This document shows, piece after piece, positions 28,389-41,167 of a stretch of DNA of 41,167 bases. Source of the DNA: Candidatus Epulonipiscioides saccharophilum. GTDB lineage: Bacteria > Bacillota > Clostridia > Lachnospirales > Cellulosilyticaceae. A program made the translations under genes and the position numbers. A model generated the notes under the pieces. That model was not told where the DNA came from. It did not search any database and saw only the letters and a list, made by a program, of their open reading frames with translations. Position 1 is the stretch's first letter, and every line of letters starts with the position of its first letter. The stretch spans positions 1 through 41,167 of the forward strand of contig LNZM01000090.1 of assembly GCA_002007295.1 (NCBI GenBank). Reading direction: 5' to 3'.

Positions 28389-31300
28389 ATGAAGAAACAT
28401 TTTGCCTTATTATTGACTGCTTTATATTTTACAACCGGATCAAGTATGCTACCAAATATGAATGTAAAATTATTAGCGCAGGATCAATATACAAATGTGC
28501 TACAAAAAGCAACCGTGCATTTAACGGATGGCCAGGCATTAAAAGATTATAAAATTTATAATGAGGATGTATCCGGAGAGGACGGGTTAGAAGTATTACC
28601 GGAAGATATAGCAGAGACCGTAAAAAATATAGCTAGAGTCGAAATTTTGAATTCTTTATCATATGAAGATAGAATTATAGCGGAGGAATTTACGTTTTTT
28701 GTAACCAACTTATCATACATAGAATACGACGCAGTAACAGAGGACAATGAATATGGTATTGCCAAATGTACTATAGGAATACGAGTTCCAACTAAAGGTA
28801 ATGTTAGAAATACCGGAGCAACAGAATTAATAAATGTCCAAATACCTATTTATTATAACGATGCTTCTGCCGACGCAGAAAGGGCCACATTCGATGCTTT
28901 AATAACAAAATTAAGAGATGAAAATTTTGATTGGAATTTAGATATTGATACTACCAAAGAGTGGATTTTATCTGAGAGTACGATTACAGATTTCTATACA
29001 AAAACTGACGCTTATGCTCAAACTTTATTGACTGGTTCCGAAGGTGGCGGTCCTCAAACTCCAGAAACTCCTGAACCGCCCGAGCCTACGCCGACTGTTT
29101 TAGATTATTCTATGGCCAATAATTATTCGAGAGCCGATAATTCTAATGCTGCTTTAGATCATGCTAAGGCCACTAATTATTCCACAGCTTATGACGATTT
29201 TTTTAAGTCTAACAAGTATTATTATTATACAACCGAAGACGATTCCACAAACAAGGACGACTCCACAAACAAGAATGATTCCACAAACGAGGACGACTCC
29301 ACAAACAAGAATGATTCCACAAACAAGGACGATTCTACAACCGAAGGTCCGGTTACAGAACCGCCTATTGATATCTCGGCTATTGGAGCTACTTATCTCC
29401 CAGTTGAATATGGTAAAGACGGTCGTATCGAGTTTATTATCGTTGCTAAGAATATCGCTAAAGTTGAGGTTATCACAGCCACTATCATTAAACCAGAATT
29501 AACGGAAGACTATCAGTCTGTGTTTGATGAAGTCTGTGATATTATTTCTGATAATTTAGTTCTGTCTGAGTATTCTTTCTTAAATGATCATGGCGATAAT
29601 GGTCAAACCGCTCTGAAAGCTATAGAAGAATTAACTAAGTCTATTGCTTTACATAAAATAATGGCCCAAGGTGACACGGAAGAAGTGGCCAAAAAACGAG
29701 AGCTAGTAGAATATATCGACTTTAGCGCTAGTACAGATCCTATAGAAGGCGATGACACAACAACCGATAACGTCTTCGAATTTACTTTAAATCTTACAAT
29801 GAAAGATATTGATGGAAGAGAAGACACATTTAAAACTGATAGACTTTCAATAGCTTTAGTAAGTCCGTCTGAAGCACCGACAGATCCAACCACCCAGGAG
29901 TCTCGAGATGCGTATAACACAATCTTGGAACATTTATATCCGCAATTATTTTCTCCAGAACCAGATCCAGATACAGAACTAGTATTCGCAACTCATCCCT
30001 TTTTCGATACTATAAGGCCAGTAACGGATTGGGGCCTTACTAAAGATATTGTTGACTCTTGGAACGAAGATGTCTCTACACCTATGTCTAATGTAGAATT
30101 TTACACCAAGGGTACAGAATTTGCTCAATCTAAACTAAATCAAATAAGTGAAGTAGATGATTTAACGAAATTCGATTTTAAATTATATCCTGTAAAAAAG
30201 ACTTATGTTCCGCCCACAGGGGACAATGCTGGTCATGTAAACTATATACTGATCTCAGAAGCTATTAATAGAATAGAGCATATTTTAGTAAAAATAAATA
30301 AGCCCGATCCACAAGGCGATTATAATCATATTCTAAATTTAGCTATCGAAAAGTTAATGGATGATACTATTTTCGGTAAATACAAAATTGCTGACGATAG
30401 AGATGAAGATCAACTTGCTCAGGATTTAGCCATGGTCGCTAAAGCAGAATTGTTAGGGCTAACTTCCGGTAATGATCGAGCTTTAGCCGAATATATTGAT
30501 ATAAAAGTAGTGGTTCACGAAACCATTTCTGGGAATCCAGCATTCATAAGTGAGAGTATACCTACTAAATTGGCCCGTTTTGACATTACTTTAACTTTAG
30601 TCGATCCTCAATCTAACCAGATTACCGAAGTTCTATTAGAAGAACTTAGCGTTCCTTTATATAAATTAGATCTAGAGGAGGTTTCCGCCCAAACTGCGTT
30701 CACCACACTTATGAATTCTGCTCATGCTTGGGGCCTTAATATCGCTAATACTCAGTCTTGGAGCACCTTTAATGATATTTCCGCATTCTATACAGACTCC
30801 ACAACTTATTTGGATAATAAATATCAACGAATATTAGGGAAAGAAAATTATATAGAGATATTTAAGCCAGATCCAGACGACGAAACTGCCGAACCAGATC
30901 TGGTAGAAAAAATTGAAATTATCGATAGAATTATCCCTATAGCCAGAACCTATGTGCCAGCAACTCCTTCTTCTAACGGATCCATAGATGTGATTATAGC
31001 ATCGACCTACGCAGCCGATGCTGAAATCTTTACTATTCCGATTAACTTGGCTCCAGAATATCAAGAAGTTTTCAATGATATCGTTGCTTTTCTTACACCT
31101 CCAAAAGTTGATGATGAATTAAATCCGACGCCAGTCGACTATCCTTTATTTACTGATAATGAAATAGAAATTATGGATAAGCCGACTACCGATGAAATAG
31201 CTGTCGGTATCGAAAACATGATGAGGACGTTAGTCCTTACTTCTGAAGAAATCGCAGGGGATAAACGTGTCTTGGGTGAAAAATTTAATCTTACGGTTAA

Positions 31301-33296
31301 GCCCGGCATCTACGATGCTCCAGAAGCGGATCCGGATCATGGGTACTTAGAATTTGAGCTTTCAGTCTCCTTAGAAGAACCGATAGCTAGAACTGTTTAT
31401 ACTCACACTTTTCCAGAAACAATCGTTGTTCCTATTTACTTAAAAGCTGGTAATGTCGGTCAATTCGATAGATTAGTATCCATGCTAAATGAAGCCGATT
31501 GGGGACTTAACAGCTCAATTACAGGCGAATGGAGCATAGAAAATGATAGCGCCTCTTTCTACGAAGATGCTAGAAACTTTGCTCTCGGAGCAATCAAAAA
31601 TATTTTAAGTTATGATAACGAACTAACCGTAGACGGTGCTCCAGCCTTAGAAACGGTCGTAGATGATATTTACCCATGGGCCTATAGCTTTACAAAAGCA
31701 ACAGTTGGTGCCGACGGCCAATTACGATTCAATGCTATTTCGAGATATTTTAATACTGCTAAAGAAGTGGTCGTTACTATTCCGAAGCCACCGGTAATAG
31801 ATCCAGAACCAGAAGGACCACCAAATTTAGGGCCATTTGTAGCCAAAACATTAGGACTTAGAACTACGATGGAAATTAGCTACTTTGGAGATTTATACAT
31901 GATGCAGGGTATTGACTATTTGGTTAAAGAAGCCGTAAAAAGAAATTCTATCCCAGAATTAATTTTGAACATCGGTGGCAAAAAAGATTCTGCTTCTATC
32001 CAGCTTCATGGTGGCGTTTTAAATACTCTTCTTATTAATGACCGATCTATCTTGACTGTAAAAAGTAAAGCAGGCCAAATAGAGTTTTCTACCAATGCTT
32101 TGCGTTCCATTATTGCTAAGGCTTTAAAAGGTGCTGTCCAGGAGGAGGATGAAAATGATCCAGAGAATCCAGATTCCGAATTAATATATGATAATCCATA
32201 TGATATATATTTAGAATCGTTGCGTAATACTGATAAGCTAAATAACGACTCTATAGATGAAGTGCCGGATCCAGATTACGATGCGGTTATTCCTCCTGGT
32301 CATATGATTGAAATAATAATTGATATGGATGCTCGCTTAACAGATGATCAAGAAGACACTATTTGGGATCATCCATACTGGTTAATATCCGTAGAAATAG
32401 ATGGAGAACAGTTCGATGACATTGAAGGCGTGATGGAATTAATCTTACCTTACGATATGGAAGGTAGAGAACCGAGGGATGTTCATTTTTATTCTGTAAA
32501 TTCTTATGGGGAGTATAACCAACTAGGTATATCCTATGATGAAGATGAGGAAGAAATTAAATTGGATGTAAAAGAACTTGGCATTTTTATGGTCACTGAA
32601 GAAAATGTTAGATTAAACGATTTATTAGAAGATAGAGAAAAAGATCTTCGTAAACGTGAGGAAGAAGCAGAGATTAGGGAAAAAGCCGGAGAAAACGTAT
32701 TAACAGAAAAAACACAATTGTTTGATTTTGAAAACCCTTTCAAAGATATTAATCCATCCACCTGGGGCTATAATGAAATATTAACACTGTATGCTTATGG
32801 TCTAATGAGTGGAGAGTCAGCAACATCTTTTAATCCAAACGAAATCGTCAACCGTGCCACTGTCATTCAGTTGCTATATACTTTGGATGGCGAAAACAGC
32901 CAATACAATAATGCGCTGTTCAATTATTATACCGATGTAAACGAATACGATAACATTCTCCGTGCTAGCAATTGGGCCAGAAATACCTACATATATCAAG
33001 GAGAAAATAATGAATTTTTATCGGATGAGCCTCTTACGAGAGAGGATATGGGCGTGATATTATATAATTATATGGCCTACAAAGGCTTGGGCCAGAATGT
33101 AGCAGTTAACCTTTCCAGGTTTAGAGATCTAGAGGAAATTTCTATAGAGGCAAGACATCCACTGGGCGTTTTAATTTACAATGGCCTATTGTCCGGTACC
33201 CCGGATTACTACTTAAACCCTCAAGATAATCTGACTAAAATGGAATTGACAGCATTCATATATAGATTGATCGGATTAATTAACTACTATAGATAA
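28389..33296 (+). CDS. Secreted surface protein with three C-terminal SLH domains
   Basis: 1,635 residues with an excellent ribosome binding site. Residues 1 to about 31 form a signal peptide (MKKH, hydrophobic core, LLAQD). Four diverged repeats follow, recognisable by W-G-L-x-x-x-I-x-x-x-W-S, a later F-Y-x-x-x-x-x-[FY]-A motif and a closing T-Y-V-P-A-T block (clear in repeats 2-4, with DWNLDIDTTKEW in the first). Between repeats 1 and 2 is a linker with a Pro-rich part and a DDSTNK repeat. A different domain occupies about 1150-1440, then a charged helix (DLRKREEEAEIREKAGE). SLH domains cover about 1449-1505, 1512-1570 and 1578-1630 (FKDI...W, YTDV, FRDL...LNP). SLH domains usually bind pyruvylated secondary wall polymer. 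Its position downstream of the giant unanchored protein suggests, but does not prove, a shared surface structure. Confidence 0.92.
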   Translation: MKKHFALLLTALYFTTGSSMLPNMNVKLLAQDQYTNVLQKATVHLTDGQALKDYKIYNEDVSGEDGLEVLPEDIAETVKNIARVEILNSLSYEDRIIAEEFTFFVTNLSYIEYDAVTEDNEYGIAKCTIGIRVPTKGNVRNTGATELINVQIPIYYNDASADAERATFDALITKLRDENFDWNLDIDTTKEWILSESTITDFYTKTDAYAQTLLTGSEGGGPQTPETPEPPEPTPTVLDYSMANNYSRADNSNAALDHAKATNYSTAYDDFFKSNKYYYYTTEDDSTNKDDSTNKNDSTNEDDSTNKNDSTNKDDSTTEGPVTEPPIDISAIGATYLPVEYGKDGRIEFIIVAKNIAKVEVITATIIKPELTEDYQSVFDEVCDIISDNLVLSEYSFLNDHGDNGQTALKAIEELTKSIALHKIMAQGDTEEVAKKRELVEYIDFSASTDPIEGDDTTTDNVFEFTLNLTMKDIDGREDTFKTDRLSIALVSPSEAPTDPTTQESRDAYNTILEHLYPQLFSPEPDPDTELVFATHPFFDTIRPVTDWGLTKDIVDSWNEDVSTPMSNVEFYTKGTEFAQSKLNQISEVDDLTKFDFKLYPVKKTYVPPTGDNAGHVNYILISEAINRIEHILVKINKPDPQGDYNHILNLAIEKLMDDTIFGKYKIADDRDEDQLAQDLAMVAKAELLGLTSGNDRALAEYIDIKVVVHETISGNPAFISESIPTKLARFDITLTLVDPQSNQITEVLLEELSVPLYKLDLEEVSAQTAFTTLMNSAHAWGLNIANTQSWSTFNDISAFYTDSTTYLDNKYQRILGKENYIEIFKPDPDDETAEPDLVEKIEIIDRIIPIARTYVPATPSSNGSIDVIIASTYAADAEIFTIPINLAPEYQEVFNDIVAFLTPPKVDDELNPTPVDYPLFTDNEIEIMDKPTTDEIAVGIENMMRTLVLTSEEIAGDKRVLGEKFNLTVKPGIYDAPEADPDHGYLEFELSVSLEEPIARTVYTHTFPETIVVPIYLKAGNVGQFDRLVSMLNEADWGLNSSITGEWSIENDSASFYEDARNFALGAIKNILSYDNELTVDGAPALETVVDDIYPWAYSFTKATVGADGQLRFNAISRYFNTAKEVVVTIPKPPVIDPEPEGPPNLGPFVAKTLGLRTTMEISYFGDLYMMQGIDYLVKEAVKRNSIPELILNIGGKKDSASIQLHGGVLNTLLINDRSILTVKSKAGQIEFSTNALRSIIAKALKGAVQEEDENDPENPDSELIYDNPYDIYLESLRNTDKLNNDSIDEVPDPDYDAVIPPGHMIEIIIDMDARLTDDQEDTIWDHPYWLISVEIDGEQFDDIEGVMELILPYDMEGREPRDVHFYSVNSYGEYNQLGISYDEDEEEIKLDVKELGIFMVTEENVRLNDLLEDREKDLRKREEEAEIREKAGENVLTEKTQLFDFENPFKDINPSTWGYNEILTLYAYGLMSGESATSFNPNEIVNRATVIQLLYTLDGENSQYNNALFNYYTDVNEYDNILRASNWARNTYIYQGENNEFLSDEPLTREDMGVILYNYMAYKGLGQNVAVNLSRFRDLEEISIEARHPLGVLIYNGLLSGTPDYYLNPQDNLTKMELTAFIYRLIGLINYYR
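29238..29342 (+). repeat. 18-bp coding repeat (DDSTNK)
   Basis: About six 18-bp units around GACGACTCCACAAACAAG encode DDSTNK, NDSTNK and DDSTNE. This forms a hydrophilic, probably flexible linker between the first and second structural repeats of the SLH protein. Copy number is likely to vary. Confidence 0.85.
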
Positions 33297-38646: not shown

Positions 38647-40137
38647 ATGCAGAAACGAAAAAATATTTTATTTATTTTAACTGATCAACAAAGAGCAGAT
38701 TTTTGCGGTTGCTATGGTGCCACTTGGCTCAAAACACCTAATATAGATATGCTCGCTAGCGAAGGTGTCTTATATAAGCATGCTGTCACTCCTTCGGCCG
38801 CCTGTGTTCCGGCTAGAGCTTCGTTGTTAACCGGCCGATCGCCGATAGAAAATAGGGTCATAAACAATGCTCAATGGTTACGTCCGGATCACACTGATAT
38901 GAATATATTCACTTGGCCACAAATTTTAGCTAAAGAAGGTTATCACACAGCTTCTATCGGTAAAATGCATTTTTATCCTTGGGATATTAGTGAAGGTTTT
39001 CAATATAGAATAATTGCTGAAGACAAAAGACATAACGGTATTCAAGACGATTATTCAATGTTTTTGAAAAAGCATGGCTACGAACGTGTTCATGGCTCAA
39101 TCTCAGAAGGCTATTACGAAAACTTAGGCGCTACCGTTAGCCACCTCCCAGAAGAACTACAAATTGATCGATACGTTTGTGATCGGACTTTAGAATATTT
39201 GGATTTACTAAACAACCAGAATAATCTAAATGCTAAAAATCAAAAAGAAGAAGTACCTTTTGCTATGATGATTGGCTTTCCAGGGCCACATTGCCCATAT
39301 GATCCTTCTCAAGAAATGTTAGATAAAATGCAAGATAGTGATGATATCCCGAATCCAGCACCTAGAACCAAAACGTCCGATACTCTTCGAGACCGAAATA
39401 TAAGGGATAATTCTCTTAGCTGGAACGGCGTTGATATAACTGAATTTTCAATAGAAAAAGCCCATAAAGTTAGACTTCACTACAGCGCCTTAGTTCAAGC
39501 AATAGATGAATATTTGGGCCAAATAATTGCTAAACTAAAAGAGCATAATATGTATGACGACACCATTATTATTTTCTCTTCAGATCATGGAGACTATTTA
39601 GGCGATTTTGGAATGGCTGGCAAAGCCCATTTCTACGAAGGTGCTATTAGAATCCCTATGATAATTAGAAATCCAGGTACCCAACCTCTAGAAATAAATC
39701 ATCCGGTTTCACTAACAGACATTTTCAATACAATATTAAATTTTGCAGGTCTAAATCCAGTGGATACATTCGACAGTACGACGTTAGCTCCGTTCGGTTC
39801 GTCCGAAAAACGTGAAGATATTTTTGGCTGCATCGATTTAGGTTGGATGCTATTATCCGGACAGTTTAAATACTGCGTGTATTATAATGGTACCCAGGAA
39901 TTATTCGATATATCATCTGATAAGCTAGAACAAAATAATTTATTGGAAGATGAAAACTATTCTCTTCTAGCCAAACAAATGAGGACAGAATTAGATAAGC
40001 GCGTCTTCGCCGCCATTTTAGCCGGAACAGCTGATAACGTCGCTCAGGAAAAATTAGAAAATAGATCTAGATCCGCTAGCAATCCTTTTAGCCATCATGG
40101 TTGGGAAAGAACATATCCTAATAAAGTCGATTTTTAA
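38647..40137 (+). CDS. Type I sulfatase, second paralogue
   Basis: 496 residues from ATG 38647. This start is preferred over the in-frame ATG 38602 because AGGAG lies 10 bases before it and the family-typical KNILFILTDQQR begins immediately; the upstream 15 codons come from a duplicated non-coding segment. Motifs (numbered from 38647): D13-Q14 in LTDQ, C53-V-P-A-R57 with ASLLTG (formylglycine signature), GKMHF near 106-110 and SSDHGDYLG with GKAHFYEG further on. There is no signal peptide. Sequence around the active site differs from the first sulfatase (CVPAR against CCPFR), so the two are likely to have different substrates. A strong terminator follows. Confidence 0.93.
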   Translation: MQKRKNILFILTDQQRADFCGCYGATWLKTPNIDMLASEGVLYKHAVTPSAACVPARASLLTGRSPIENRVINNAQWLRPDHTDMNIFTWPQILAKEGYHTASIGKMHFYPWDISEGFQYRIIAEDKRHNGIQDDYSMFLKKHGYERVHGSISEGYYENLGATVSHLPEELQIDRYVCDRTLEYLDLLNNQNNLNAKNQKEEVPFAMMIGFPGPHCPYDPSQEMLDKMQDSDDIPNPAPRTKTSDTLRDRNIRDNSLSWNGVDITEFSIEKAHKVRLHYSALVQAIDEYLGQIIAKLKEHNMYDDTIIIFSSDHGDYLGDFGMAGKAHFYEGAIRIPMIIRNPGTQPLEINHPVSLTDIFNTILNFAGLNPVDTFDSTTLAPFGSSEKREDIFGCIDLGWMLLSGQFKYCVYYNGTQELFDISSDKLEQNNLLEDENYSLLAKQMRTELDKRVFAAILAGTADNVAQEKLENRSRSASNPFSHHGWERTYPNKVDF

Positions 40138-40152
40138 AAAAATTGTGCAACT

Positions 40153-40202
40153 AAAGCAGTCAGGTTTTTAACTTCGCAGTGAGCTAAAGCTGACTGCTTT
40201 TT
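40153..40202 (+). terminator. Rho-independent terminator of the sulfatase genes
   Basis: AAAGCAGTCAG (40153-40163) and CTGACTGCTTT (40190-40200) form a perfect 11-bp stem followed by T residues. It lies 16 bases after the stop codon. Confidence 0.85.
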
Positions 40203-40224
40203 AACATCTTAGTAAGCTAAAATG

Positions 40225-40285
40225 GACTGCTCGCAACATCTCAGTCACTGCGTCTTTTGCGTAGTCATCACTCCAGGAGAGCATT
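40225..40285. repeat. Remnant of the dispersed hairpin repeat
   Basis: CATCTCAGTCACTGCGTC followed by TTTTGCGTAGTCATCACTCC and AGGAGAGCATTGG resembles the pattern CTCAGTCACTGCGTGACAG then TCCTAGAAGGAGAGC at 35592-35625, interrupted and partly decayed. Confidence 0.45.
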
Positions 40286-40319
40286 GGCTGAGGAAAAGAA
40301 AAATTTCGTTTTAAATCTA

Positions 40320-40349
40320 TTGACAACCATTACTACTTTATGTTACGAT
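40320..40349 (+). promoter_or_regulatory. Strong sigma-A-type promoter without a following gene
   Basis: TTGACA (40320-40325) and TACGAT (40344-40349) are separated by 18 bases. No open reading frame with a ribosome binding site follows; the transcript would begin near 40356 and run into the structured region. Confidence 0.55.
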
Positions 40350-40355
40350 AGCGGG

Positions 40356-40620
40356 GATTAAGTATGTATATATTTGACACTCCACACGCCTAAAGGCGGA
40401 GGATTCTAAAGTGATTAAAGGACATACAAATTCATTTCTGAGCGTCCAACCTTTAGTTAAGGGTATGCCATTACCCTGCATACAACAGGACATATAGTCT
40501 TGTATGCAGATACACTTTTACCATGTATTCGAGACTGAGTCTTTAAGAAATCGTTTTAACGACTTTTTCTTGTCGTGTTTCACTTTAGAAACATTTTCGA
40601 TGCATTGAATATTTTACGTT
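40356..40620 (+). ncRNA. Candidate structured non-coding RNA
   Basis: Downstream of the promoter there are many stems. They include CTCC...GGAG enclosing GCC-TAAA-GGC (40380-40402), GGAC/GTCC (40420-40447), GGGTA-TGCCAT-TACCC (40461-40476), a perfect 10-bp stem CTGCATACAA/TTGTATGCAG (40476-40485 with 40500-40509) and ACGAC/GTCGT near 40560-40580. GTATGC at 40463-40468 can also pair with GCATAC at 40478-40483, competing with the 10-bp stem. The shape recalls the transcribed ends (omega RNA-like) of IS200/IS605 or IS1341-type elements, but a standalone RNA or leader is equally possible. I could not assign it to a named RNA family. Confidence 0.4.
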
Positions 40621-40749
40621 AGAAATGACTACTTCTAGCAACCATCTATATTCAGGTGTAGCTATAGTGTAGCAAAAAAACAAAAGATATAAACATCTTT
40701 TGAAAAAAAATTTTTAATAGCCTTATATCCCCATAGCTAAAGCTAGGGG
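40378..40749. mobile_element. Possible remnant of an IS200/IS605-like element
   Basis: The segment is framed by two TAAA-loop hairpins: ACTCCACACGCCTAAAGGCG-GAG (40379-40402) and CCCC-A-TAGC-TAAA-GCTA-GGGG (40729-40749). Imperfect hairpins of this type with a conserved loop stand near the ends of IS200/IS605 and tnpB-only elements. No tnpA or tnpB frame is present, so this would be a deleted or non-autonomous derivative. The judgement rests on resemblance only. Confidence 0.35.
40674..40702 (-). terminator. Terminator for minus-strand transcription
   Basis: CAAAAGAT-ATAAAC-ATCTTTTG (40681-40702) is a perfect 8-bp stem. On the minus strand it is followed by seven T residues (40680 down to 40674). 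It may end a transcript entering from beyond the right edge. Confidence 0.6.
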
Positions 40750-40966
40750 CTTTACGGCTTATCTGGTAATATAAGTATATTAAAGCATAATTGCGATAAT
40801 TTCAATAGATATATCGAAAATATAAAAGTAAATTATTCCATGTACGTGTAAGTTAATGTAAAGTATAGTATAAGAGAGAGTAAGTTACTTTACATATTAA
40901 ATTTAAGTTTGAATACAGTACATAATATATAAAATACGAAAAAGGTATTAAAGATTATCTTAATAA
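40750..40966. other. AT-rich non-coding stretch with an inverted repeat
   Basis: No gene is seen. ATGTAAAGTA (40856-40865) and TACTTTACAT (40886-40895) form a perfect 10-bp inverted repeat around a 20-base loop, which could be an operator or a hairpin. Confidence 0.5.
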
Positions 40967-41167
40967 AAAGTAAGTTTCTAAAGATTGACTATTATTATAG
41001 AAGATAAACTTCTAAAGATTGACTATTAATTTATAGAAGATAAGCTTCTAAAGATGGACTATTATATATGAAGATAAGCTTCTAAAGATGGACTATTATA
41101 TATGAAGATAAGCTTCTAAAGATGGACTATTATATATGAAGATAAGCTTCTAAAGATGGACTATTAT
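40967..41167 (+). repeat. 34-bp tandem repeat array, continuing past the window
   Basis: The unit AAGATAAGCTTCTAAAGATG plus GACTATTATATATG (34 bp) occurs from 41037 on without change (41037-41070, 41071-41104, 41105-41138, then 41139 to the edge). Two diverged units precede it (about 40967-41000 and 41001-41036). There are no spacers between units. Confidence 0.93.

Follow-up and report, generated by a model that had tools for sequence, protein, structure and literature searches.

What is encoded by a strongly structured stretch without a gene? Such a stretch lies near the right-hand edge of the window (the whole 41,167-nt stretch of DNA analysed here), where the initial annotation had described a promoter, an absent reading frame, many stems and framing hairpins, and had left the choice between an omega-like RNA, a regulatory RNA and an orphaned leader. 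The absence of a gene is borne out, as no ORF of at least 80 aa lies between 40137 and the window end. The strong structure is likewise real: as RNA, 40356–40749 folds better than chance (z −6.0, with 0 of 100 shuffles as good), as does 40356–40760 as DNA (z −4.4), and there is a perfect inverted pair of 11 nt (40404–40414/40580–40590). On its minus strand, 40374–40765 is one 392-bp copy of a repeated non-autonomous IS608-type IS200/IS605 element (MITE/PATE). Judged from sequence comparison, it is very probably a gene-less mini-element of IS608 type that carries a TnpB omega RNA (reRNA) scaffold on the minus strand (Table 1).

Ends, copies and parents of the element

The element was delimited by its copies, whose aligned edges are sharp: on the plus strand they start at TTGA and stop before GTAA, which on the minus strand reads as TTAC followed by the element and its terminal TCAA. 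Among 39 fetched loci of the window's genome plus the window itself, with a decayed parent (L029) included, TCAA is present in 27 of 29 right ends and TTAC in 23 of 25 left flanks (26 left ends, one running off its contig end), and the 29 right ends have 29 different flanks. In alignments of the copies, AAAG and GAAT directly adjoin the two hairpins, at their IS608 positions. One copy, L011 (330–714), interrupts a glutamate dehydrogenase frame. When its flanks are joined and a single TTAC is retained, a continuous in-frame stretch is restored, and the part of the rejoined flanks after an unrelated upstream in-frame stop matches Pfam PF00208 (2.2e-34). Since the joined flanks restore the reading frame, insertion without target duplication is indicated for this one copy.

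The window's genome holds at least 51 matches to the element, a lower bound with 40 of 96 first-look candidates scored, and the full-length ones are 85–93% identical. The omega core (element positions 36–126) is complete or within 2 nt of complete at 24 places in this genome and has been lost from some copies, in L026 by deletion and in L043 by deletion accompanied by a foreign-looking right end. The variant L043 (490–770), besides lacking the core, has a right-end hairpin of another kind, and an internal position shared by several contig breaks hints at more such copies.

A full parent is found in a related genome, G008 (L081, 764–2642), where tnpA (146 aa; PF01797, 1.9e-46) and tnpB (347 aa; PF07282, 1.3e-25, and PF01385) stand between the same ends. 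Homology to the mini-element covers positions 1–63, 1469–1497 (inside tnpB) and 1719–1879 of the parent, numbered in the parent's orientation. The last of these pieces takes in the final 16 nt of tnpB, continues as far as the right end and matches the retained 162-nt right block, so that about 160 nt are kept on the right versus about 63 bp of the left end. In the decayed parent of the window's own genome, the same ends enclose fragments of tnpA and tnpB. Farther afield, the window's 3′ hairpin and its flank match the left ends of elements from Campylobacter fetus, a Helicobacter phage and Megamonas, and in each case annotated tnpA and/or tnpB genes on the opposite strand follow closely downstream. 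Copy alignment, these matched left ends and the end counts together confirm that the framing hairpins are IS200/IS605 ends, as had been suspected.

No intact tnpA or tnpB of the element's type was found in the window's draft genome (92.4% complete, 166 contigs), which yielded one Y1 fragment, one TnpB-domain fragment with a stop and one 51-residue TnpB match. Repeats are poorly covered in this draft, because many of its contigs break inside the element. Intact tnpB is present in G008, and intact-length tnpA ORFs occur in G008 and G009. The search for tnpB elsewhere that had been advised recovered a full parent in a related genome but only fragments in the window's own. The suggested leader with a lost gene is apt solely insofar as a mobile element has shed its tnpA and the greater part of its tnpB. 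A locus of G009 (L155, 1501–2101) combines an intact 140-aa tnpA with the right-end half of the omega block, without tnpB.

Table 1. Features of the element and its surroundings, in window coordinates
Feature	Position	Strand	Basis
Promoter-like site of the initial annotation	40320..40349	+	outside element, antisense to omega RNA
Flanking DNA predicted to serve as the 16-nt guide of the omega RNA	40358..40373	-	position; ~16 nt flank in PMC8612924; 29 different flanks
Non-autonomous IS608-type IS200/IS605 element (MITE/PATE), 392 bp	40374..40765	-	copy alignments, end counts, empty site of copy L011
Putative omega RNA (reRNA) scaffold: internal stems + right-end hairpin	40374..40535	-	homologous to L081 tnpB tail + right end; model R1, 180.8 bits (row helped build R1)
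Right cleavage site CR, TCAA	40374..40377	-	27/29 right ends; IS608 CR = TCAA (PMC5934647)
Right-end hairpin IPR	40380..40402	-	sequence, copy alignment
Right guide tetranucleotide GR, GAAT	40403..40406	-	sequence; IS608 GR = GAAT (PMC5934647)
Stem D (40451-40456 / 40406-40411; inner 40444-40447 / 40420-40423)	40406..40456	-	covariation
Stem C (40472-40476 / 40461-40465)	40461..40476	-	contains first GTATGC; weakest stem in own copies, 66/84 cells paired
Stem B (40500-40507 / 40478-40485; inner GAC/GTC 40497-40499 / 40489-40491)	40478..40507	-	covariation; contains GCATAC + second GTATGC of the initial annotation
Stem A (40523-40529 / 40509-40515)	40509..40529	-	two-sided changes in 4/7 pairs (A2), 7/7 (A3)
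tnpB interior remnant	40553..40581	-	93% over 29 nt to intact tnpB of L081
Left-end hairpin IPL	40729..40749	-	near-identical to Helicobacter/Campylobacter/Megamonas left ends just upstream of tnpA/tnpB
Left guide tetranucleotide GL, AAAG	40750..40753	-	sequence; IS608 GL = AAAG (PMC5934647)
TTAC target / left cleavage site CL, retained in left flank; expected TAM	40766..40769	-	23/25 left ends; IS608 CL = TTAC (PMC5934647)

The right-end block and its stems

The orientation of tnpB points to a minus-strand RNA. The earlier suggestion of an omega-like RNA therefore stands as to kind, a free-standing omega RNA scaffold, but not as to strand: the RNA would be read from the minus strand, with the 3′ end of the scaffold at 40374 and the would-be guide running from 40373 downwards. 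A strand test on alignment A2 (below) gave 45 G·U versus 25 A·C cells, yet 15 versus 19 distinct events. Inside the element, the minus strand showed no sigma-70-like promoter. The plus-strand promoter reported earlier, TTGACA-18-TACGAT (10/12), is indeed the best of six promoter-like matches in 40100–41167, but shuffles average 5.6 such matches, and 24 bp separate it from the element. The proposed Rfam check assigned no family to the element at gathering score, with only three weak unrelated matches up to E 10, and the omega RNA of IscB (HEARO) was matched neither at gathering score nor up to E 10.

Pairing was assessed in alignment A2, which comprises 29 rows from five genomes under a 40-pair structure set by hand on the window copy and omits further, mostly partial, copies (40 are listed in all). 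Of its 1106 cells, 91.0% are paired, versus 36–53% when the partners are slid. Two-sided changes affect 13 of the 40 pairs (shuffle mean 9.1; 4 of 500 shuffles reach 13) and 72 cells (shuffle mean 24.1; 0 of 500 reach 72). One measure runs contrary, with 27 further pair types against a shuffle mean of 30.4. In alignment A3 (16 rows), to which six matches from three further genomes were added and fitted to R1, the covariance model built from A2, two-sided changes rise to 24 of 40 pairs and 90 cells, figures reached in 0 of 500 shuffles. Comparison of the consensus of 17 rows from the window's genome with that of seven rows from relatives (five G014 rows with deletions were left out) revealed eight differing pairs, all changed on both sides and seven of them paired in both consensus sequences. 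Stem B exemplifies the pattern, reading CATACAA/TTGTATG here, CCTAGGG/CCCTAGG in relatives and CCTACAG/CTGTAGG in L137. As read from these alignments, the compensatory changes show that the RNA stems have been under selection in this element family.

When this selection acted is a separate matter. Diversity among the copies of the window's genome is 0.095 in the omega block versus 0.064 in the neighbouring tnpB scrap (148–260). Stems are less variable than loops in these copies (0.067 versus 0.111), and the order is reversed in the other genomes (0.126 versus 0.080). The omega RNA of the G008 mini-element differs at 9 of 126 positions from its resident parent and at 7 of 126 from the G003 mini-element; because it is about equally close to both, the stem changes may have arisen in full elements and then passed to mini-elements.

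Relatives and known systems

A search with R1 retrieved the omega block from 8 of 392 genomes of the order. Matches at the 3′ ends of annotated TnpB genes are weak in Megamonas, the Helicobacter phage and Campylobacter (22.0, 20.3 and 17.2 bits; E-values 0.0078, 0.018 and 0.083, respectively), and a further match immediately follows an intact TnpB frame of 402 aa in G311. The same tnpB scrap is found in full-length mini-elements of G003, G008, G009 and G014, those of the last two genomes with two extra internal stretches. Gene-less elements that carry the omega block with other insides were observed at L137 887–1303 (G338, 417 bp) and L160 1279–1642 (G177, 364 bp). These two genomes belong to two other families of the order, and the omega block was therefore probably retained more than once in evolution. 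An exact-pattern scan for the window's own stem type gave nothing in genome_contigs or viral_contigs, and the conserved omega pattern returned 11 stretches in genome_contigs, all Epulopiscium, and 0 in viral_contigs.

The element type itself is already known, from IS608 and from PATEs. With IS608 of Helicobacter pylori, as described in two papers (PMC5934647, PMC8612924), the element shares CL TTAC, CR TCAA, GL AAAG, GR GAAT, subterminal hairpins and insertion 3′ of TTAC without duplication; it differs in being a 392-bp mini-element without tnpA or tnpB. Its make-up is the same as that of a PATE-like element of Halanaerobium hydrogeniformans described in section 3.8 of PMC7290912, which has no tnpA and retains the left-end hairpin, the terminal 58 nt of tnpB and a complete right end of 160 nt. 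That element is present in one copy and its section does not discuss a guide RNA, whereas here the omega core occurs at 24 places and covaries across relatives. For ISDra2, PMC8612924 describes an reRNA of about 150 nt that derives from the tnpB 3′ end and right end and carries a further 16 nt or so of flank, with the TAM equal to the transposon target. The retained block 40374–40535, a predicted guide RNA scaffold, is the same piece of an IS608-type element; unlike ISDra2, it has no tnpB in cis, and its target is TTAC rather than TTGAT.

Guide RNA loci without an adjoining nuclease gene also exist as the stand-alone omega RNAs of IscB systems. The mini-element's guide RNA locus resembles them in this respect; the IscB omega RNA is a different RNA from that of TnpB and lies 5′ of its gene. 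The literature searched, in which coverage was limited and subscription papers were few and represented in part, contained no gene-less elements carrying TnpB guide RNAs. Within similarly limited coverage, nothing was found on Epulopiscium with TnpB, and none of the best 10 literature matches concerned Epulopiscium transposons. A word search of PMC9956272 for non-autonomous elements, MITEs and PATEs gave no relevant passage. As far as these limited searches go, the new aspect is that a guide RNA has been identified, and covariation of its stems demonstrated, for an element family with many copies.

Rival readings, possible function and surroundings

The initial annotation described competing folds, and one rival reading is a plus-strand regulatory RNA or riboswitch-like leader with two exclusive GTATGC/GCATAC pairings. 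The motif positions given earlier are correct (GTATGC at 40463 and 40502, GCATAC at 40478), all three motifs are present and the plus strand folds well (z −3.8 for 40374–40521). The first GTATGC, however, sits inside a small stem of its own, and across the 29 aligned copies the first-site GTATGC, GCATAC and second GTATGC occur 5, 2 and 15 times, respectively, with all three together only in the window copy; among the pairings only the stem 40478–40485/40500–40507 is kept, by compensatory change. The competing folds were accordingly rejected, and a regulatory switch built on them is not supported. A plus-strand leader also fits poorly with at least 51 genome matches at unrelated sites, a promoter outside the element and the lack of any gene of at least 80 aa downstream on the plus strand within the window. 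Because the parental tnpA and tnpB run on the other strand and known left ends match the window's 3′ hairpin, we rejected the plus-strand reading; a plus-strand regulatory RNA or leader with the two folds we consider very improbable. A self-splicing group I intron inside IS605 ends, as in IStrons, would likewise place some 400 nt of structured RNA between such ends; there is a string near 40489 that we take to be S-element-like, and the window's genome has two group I intron matches elsewhere. The element itself gives no group I (RF00028) match up to E 10, its core strings are in the wrong order for a group I intron, and blastn of the element against the two intron loci, which are unlike it, returned nothing beyond 22 bp at E 0.29; we rejected this candidate and give it virtually no credence. 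The intron matches themselves lie at L031 1501–1839 (63.8 bits) and L032 1501–1720 (51.5 bits), the second alone reaching gathering score when the loci were rescanned.

A third alternative accepts the gene-less IS608-type element and disputes only its function: the omega block would be merely the inherited right end of a defective transposon, a dead relic whose ends are copied together, with no working guide RNA. We give this an even chance. Intact tnpB is absent from the draft genome, conservation among the copies of the window's genome is no higher in the omega block than in the tnpB scrap, and copies without the omega core exist. Against a relic stand the unequal lengths kept (about 160 nt on the right, about 63 on the left), the two-sided changes that maintain the stems and the retention of the block by gene-less elements in three families.

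If the block does function, the predicted guide RNA could plausibly act in trans with TnpB. Cas12 is regarded as a descendant of TnpB, whose guide RNA is believed to help keep full transposons from being lost. The Y1 TnpA of a full element would act in trans on the mini-element, transferring it in single-stranded form by peel and paste to positions 3′ of TTAC, a step suggested by the ends and the copy number. A minus-strand transcript passing through the right end into the flank would supply the scaffold together with about 16 nt beyond TCAA as guide. This scaffold RNA would load TnpB provided in trans, TnpB would cut the emptied TTAC site, and repair after the cut would put the element back. 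That the scaffold is a working guide RNA in trans, now or recently, is a tentative proposal from comparative data, which we hold possible but somewhat short of probable. A multi-copy gene-less family keeping its guide RNA by compensatory change would mean that the transposon's parasites also exploit the RNA-guided step.

A bolder proposal, which we regard as unlikely, is that mini-transposons lacking genes retain a functional TnpB guide RNA and rely on TnpB supplied in trans, each copy programming cuts of its own empty sites. The hosts here (Epulopiscium type) we take to be giant fish-gut bacteria with very many chromosome copies, and in so polyploid a cell the elements would act as a gene drive spreading insertions through the chromosome copies. 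If true, this would account for the RNA having been preserved by compensatory evolution once the genes were gone. Epulopiscium-type cells would lend themselves naturally to testing a TnpB gene drive that acts on chromosomes instead of plasmids, the latter being the case treated in PMC11870625.

The rest of the window contains further features. A single ORF of 7665 aa spans 2647–25644 (+), and another, of 1635 aa, lies at 28389–33296. Directly after a sulfatase gene, two 33-nt repeat units (40151–40216) form a hairpin (40153–40167/40186–40200, 93%) followed by a T run, which is perhaps the terminator of that gene. From 40971 to 41167 and onward in the contig there are 34-bp tandem repeats (AAGCTTCTAAAGATGGACTATTATATATGAAGAT), which in L138 make up two arrays (5.7 and 5.5 copies), and a 30-bp array of 7.4 copies follows further on (L138 4285–4504).
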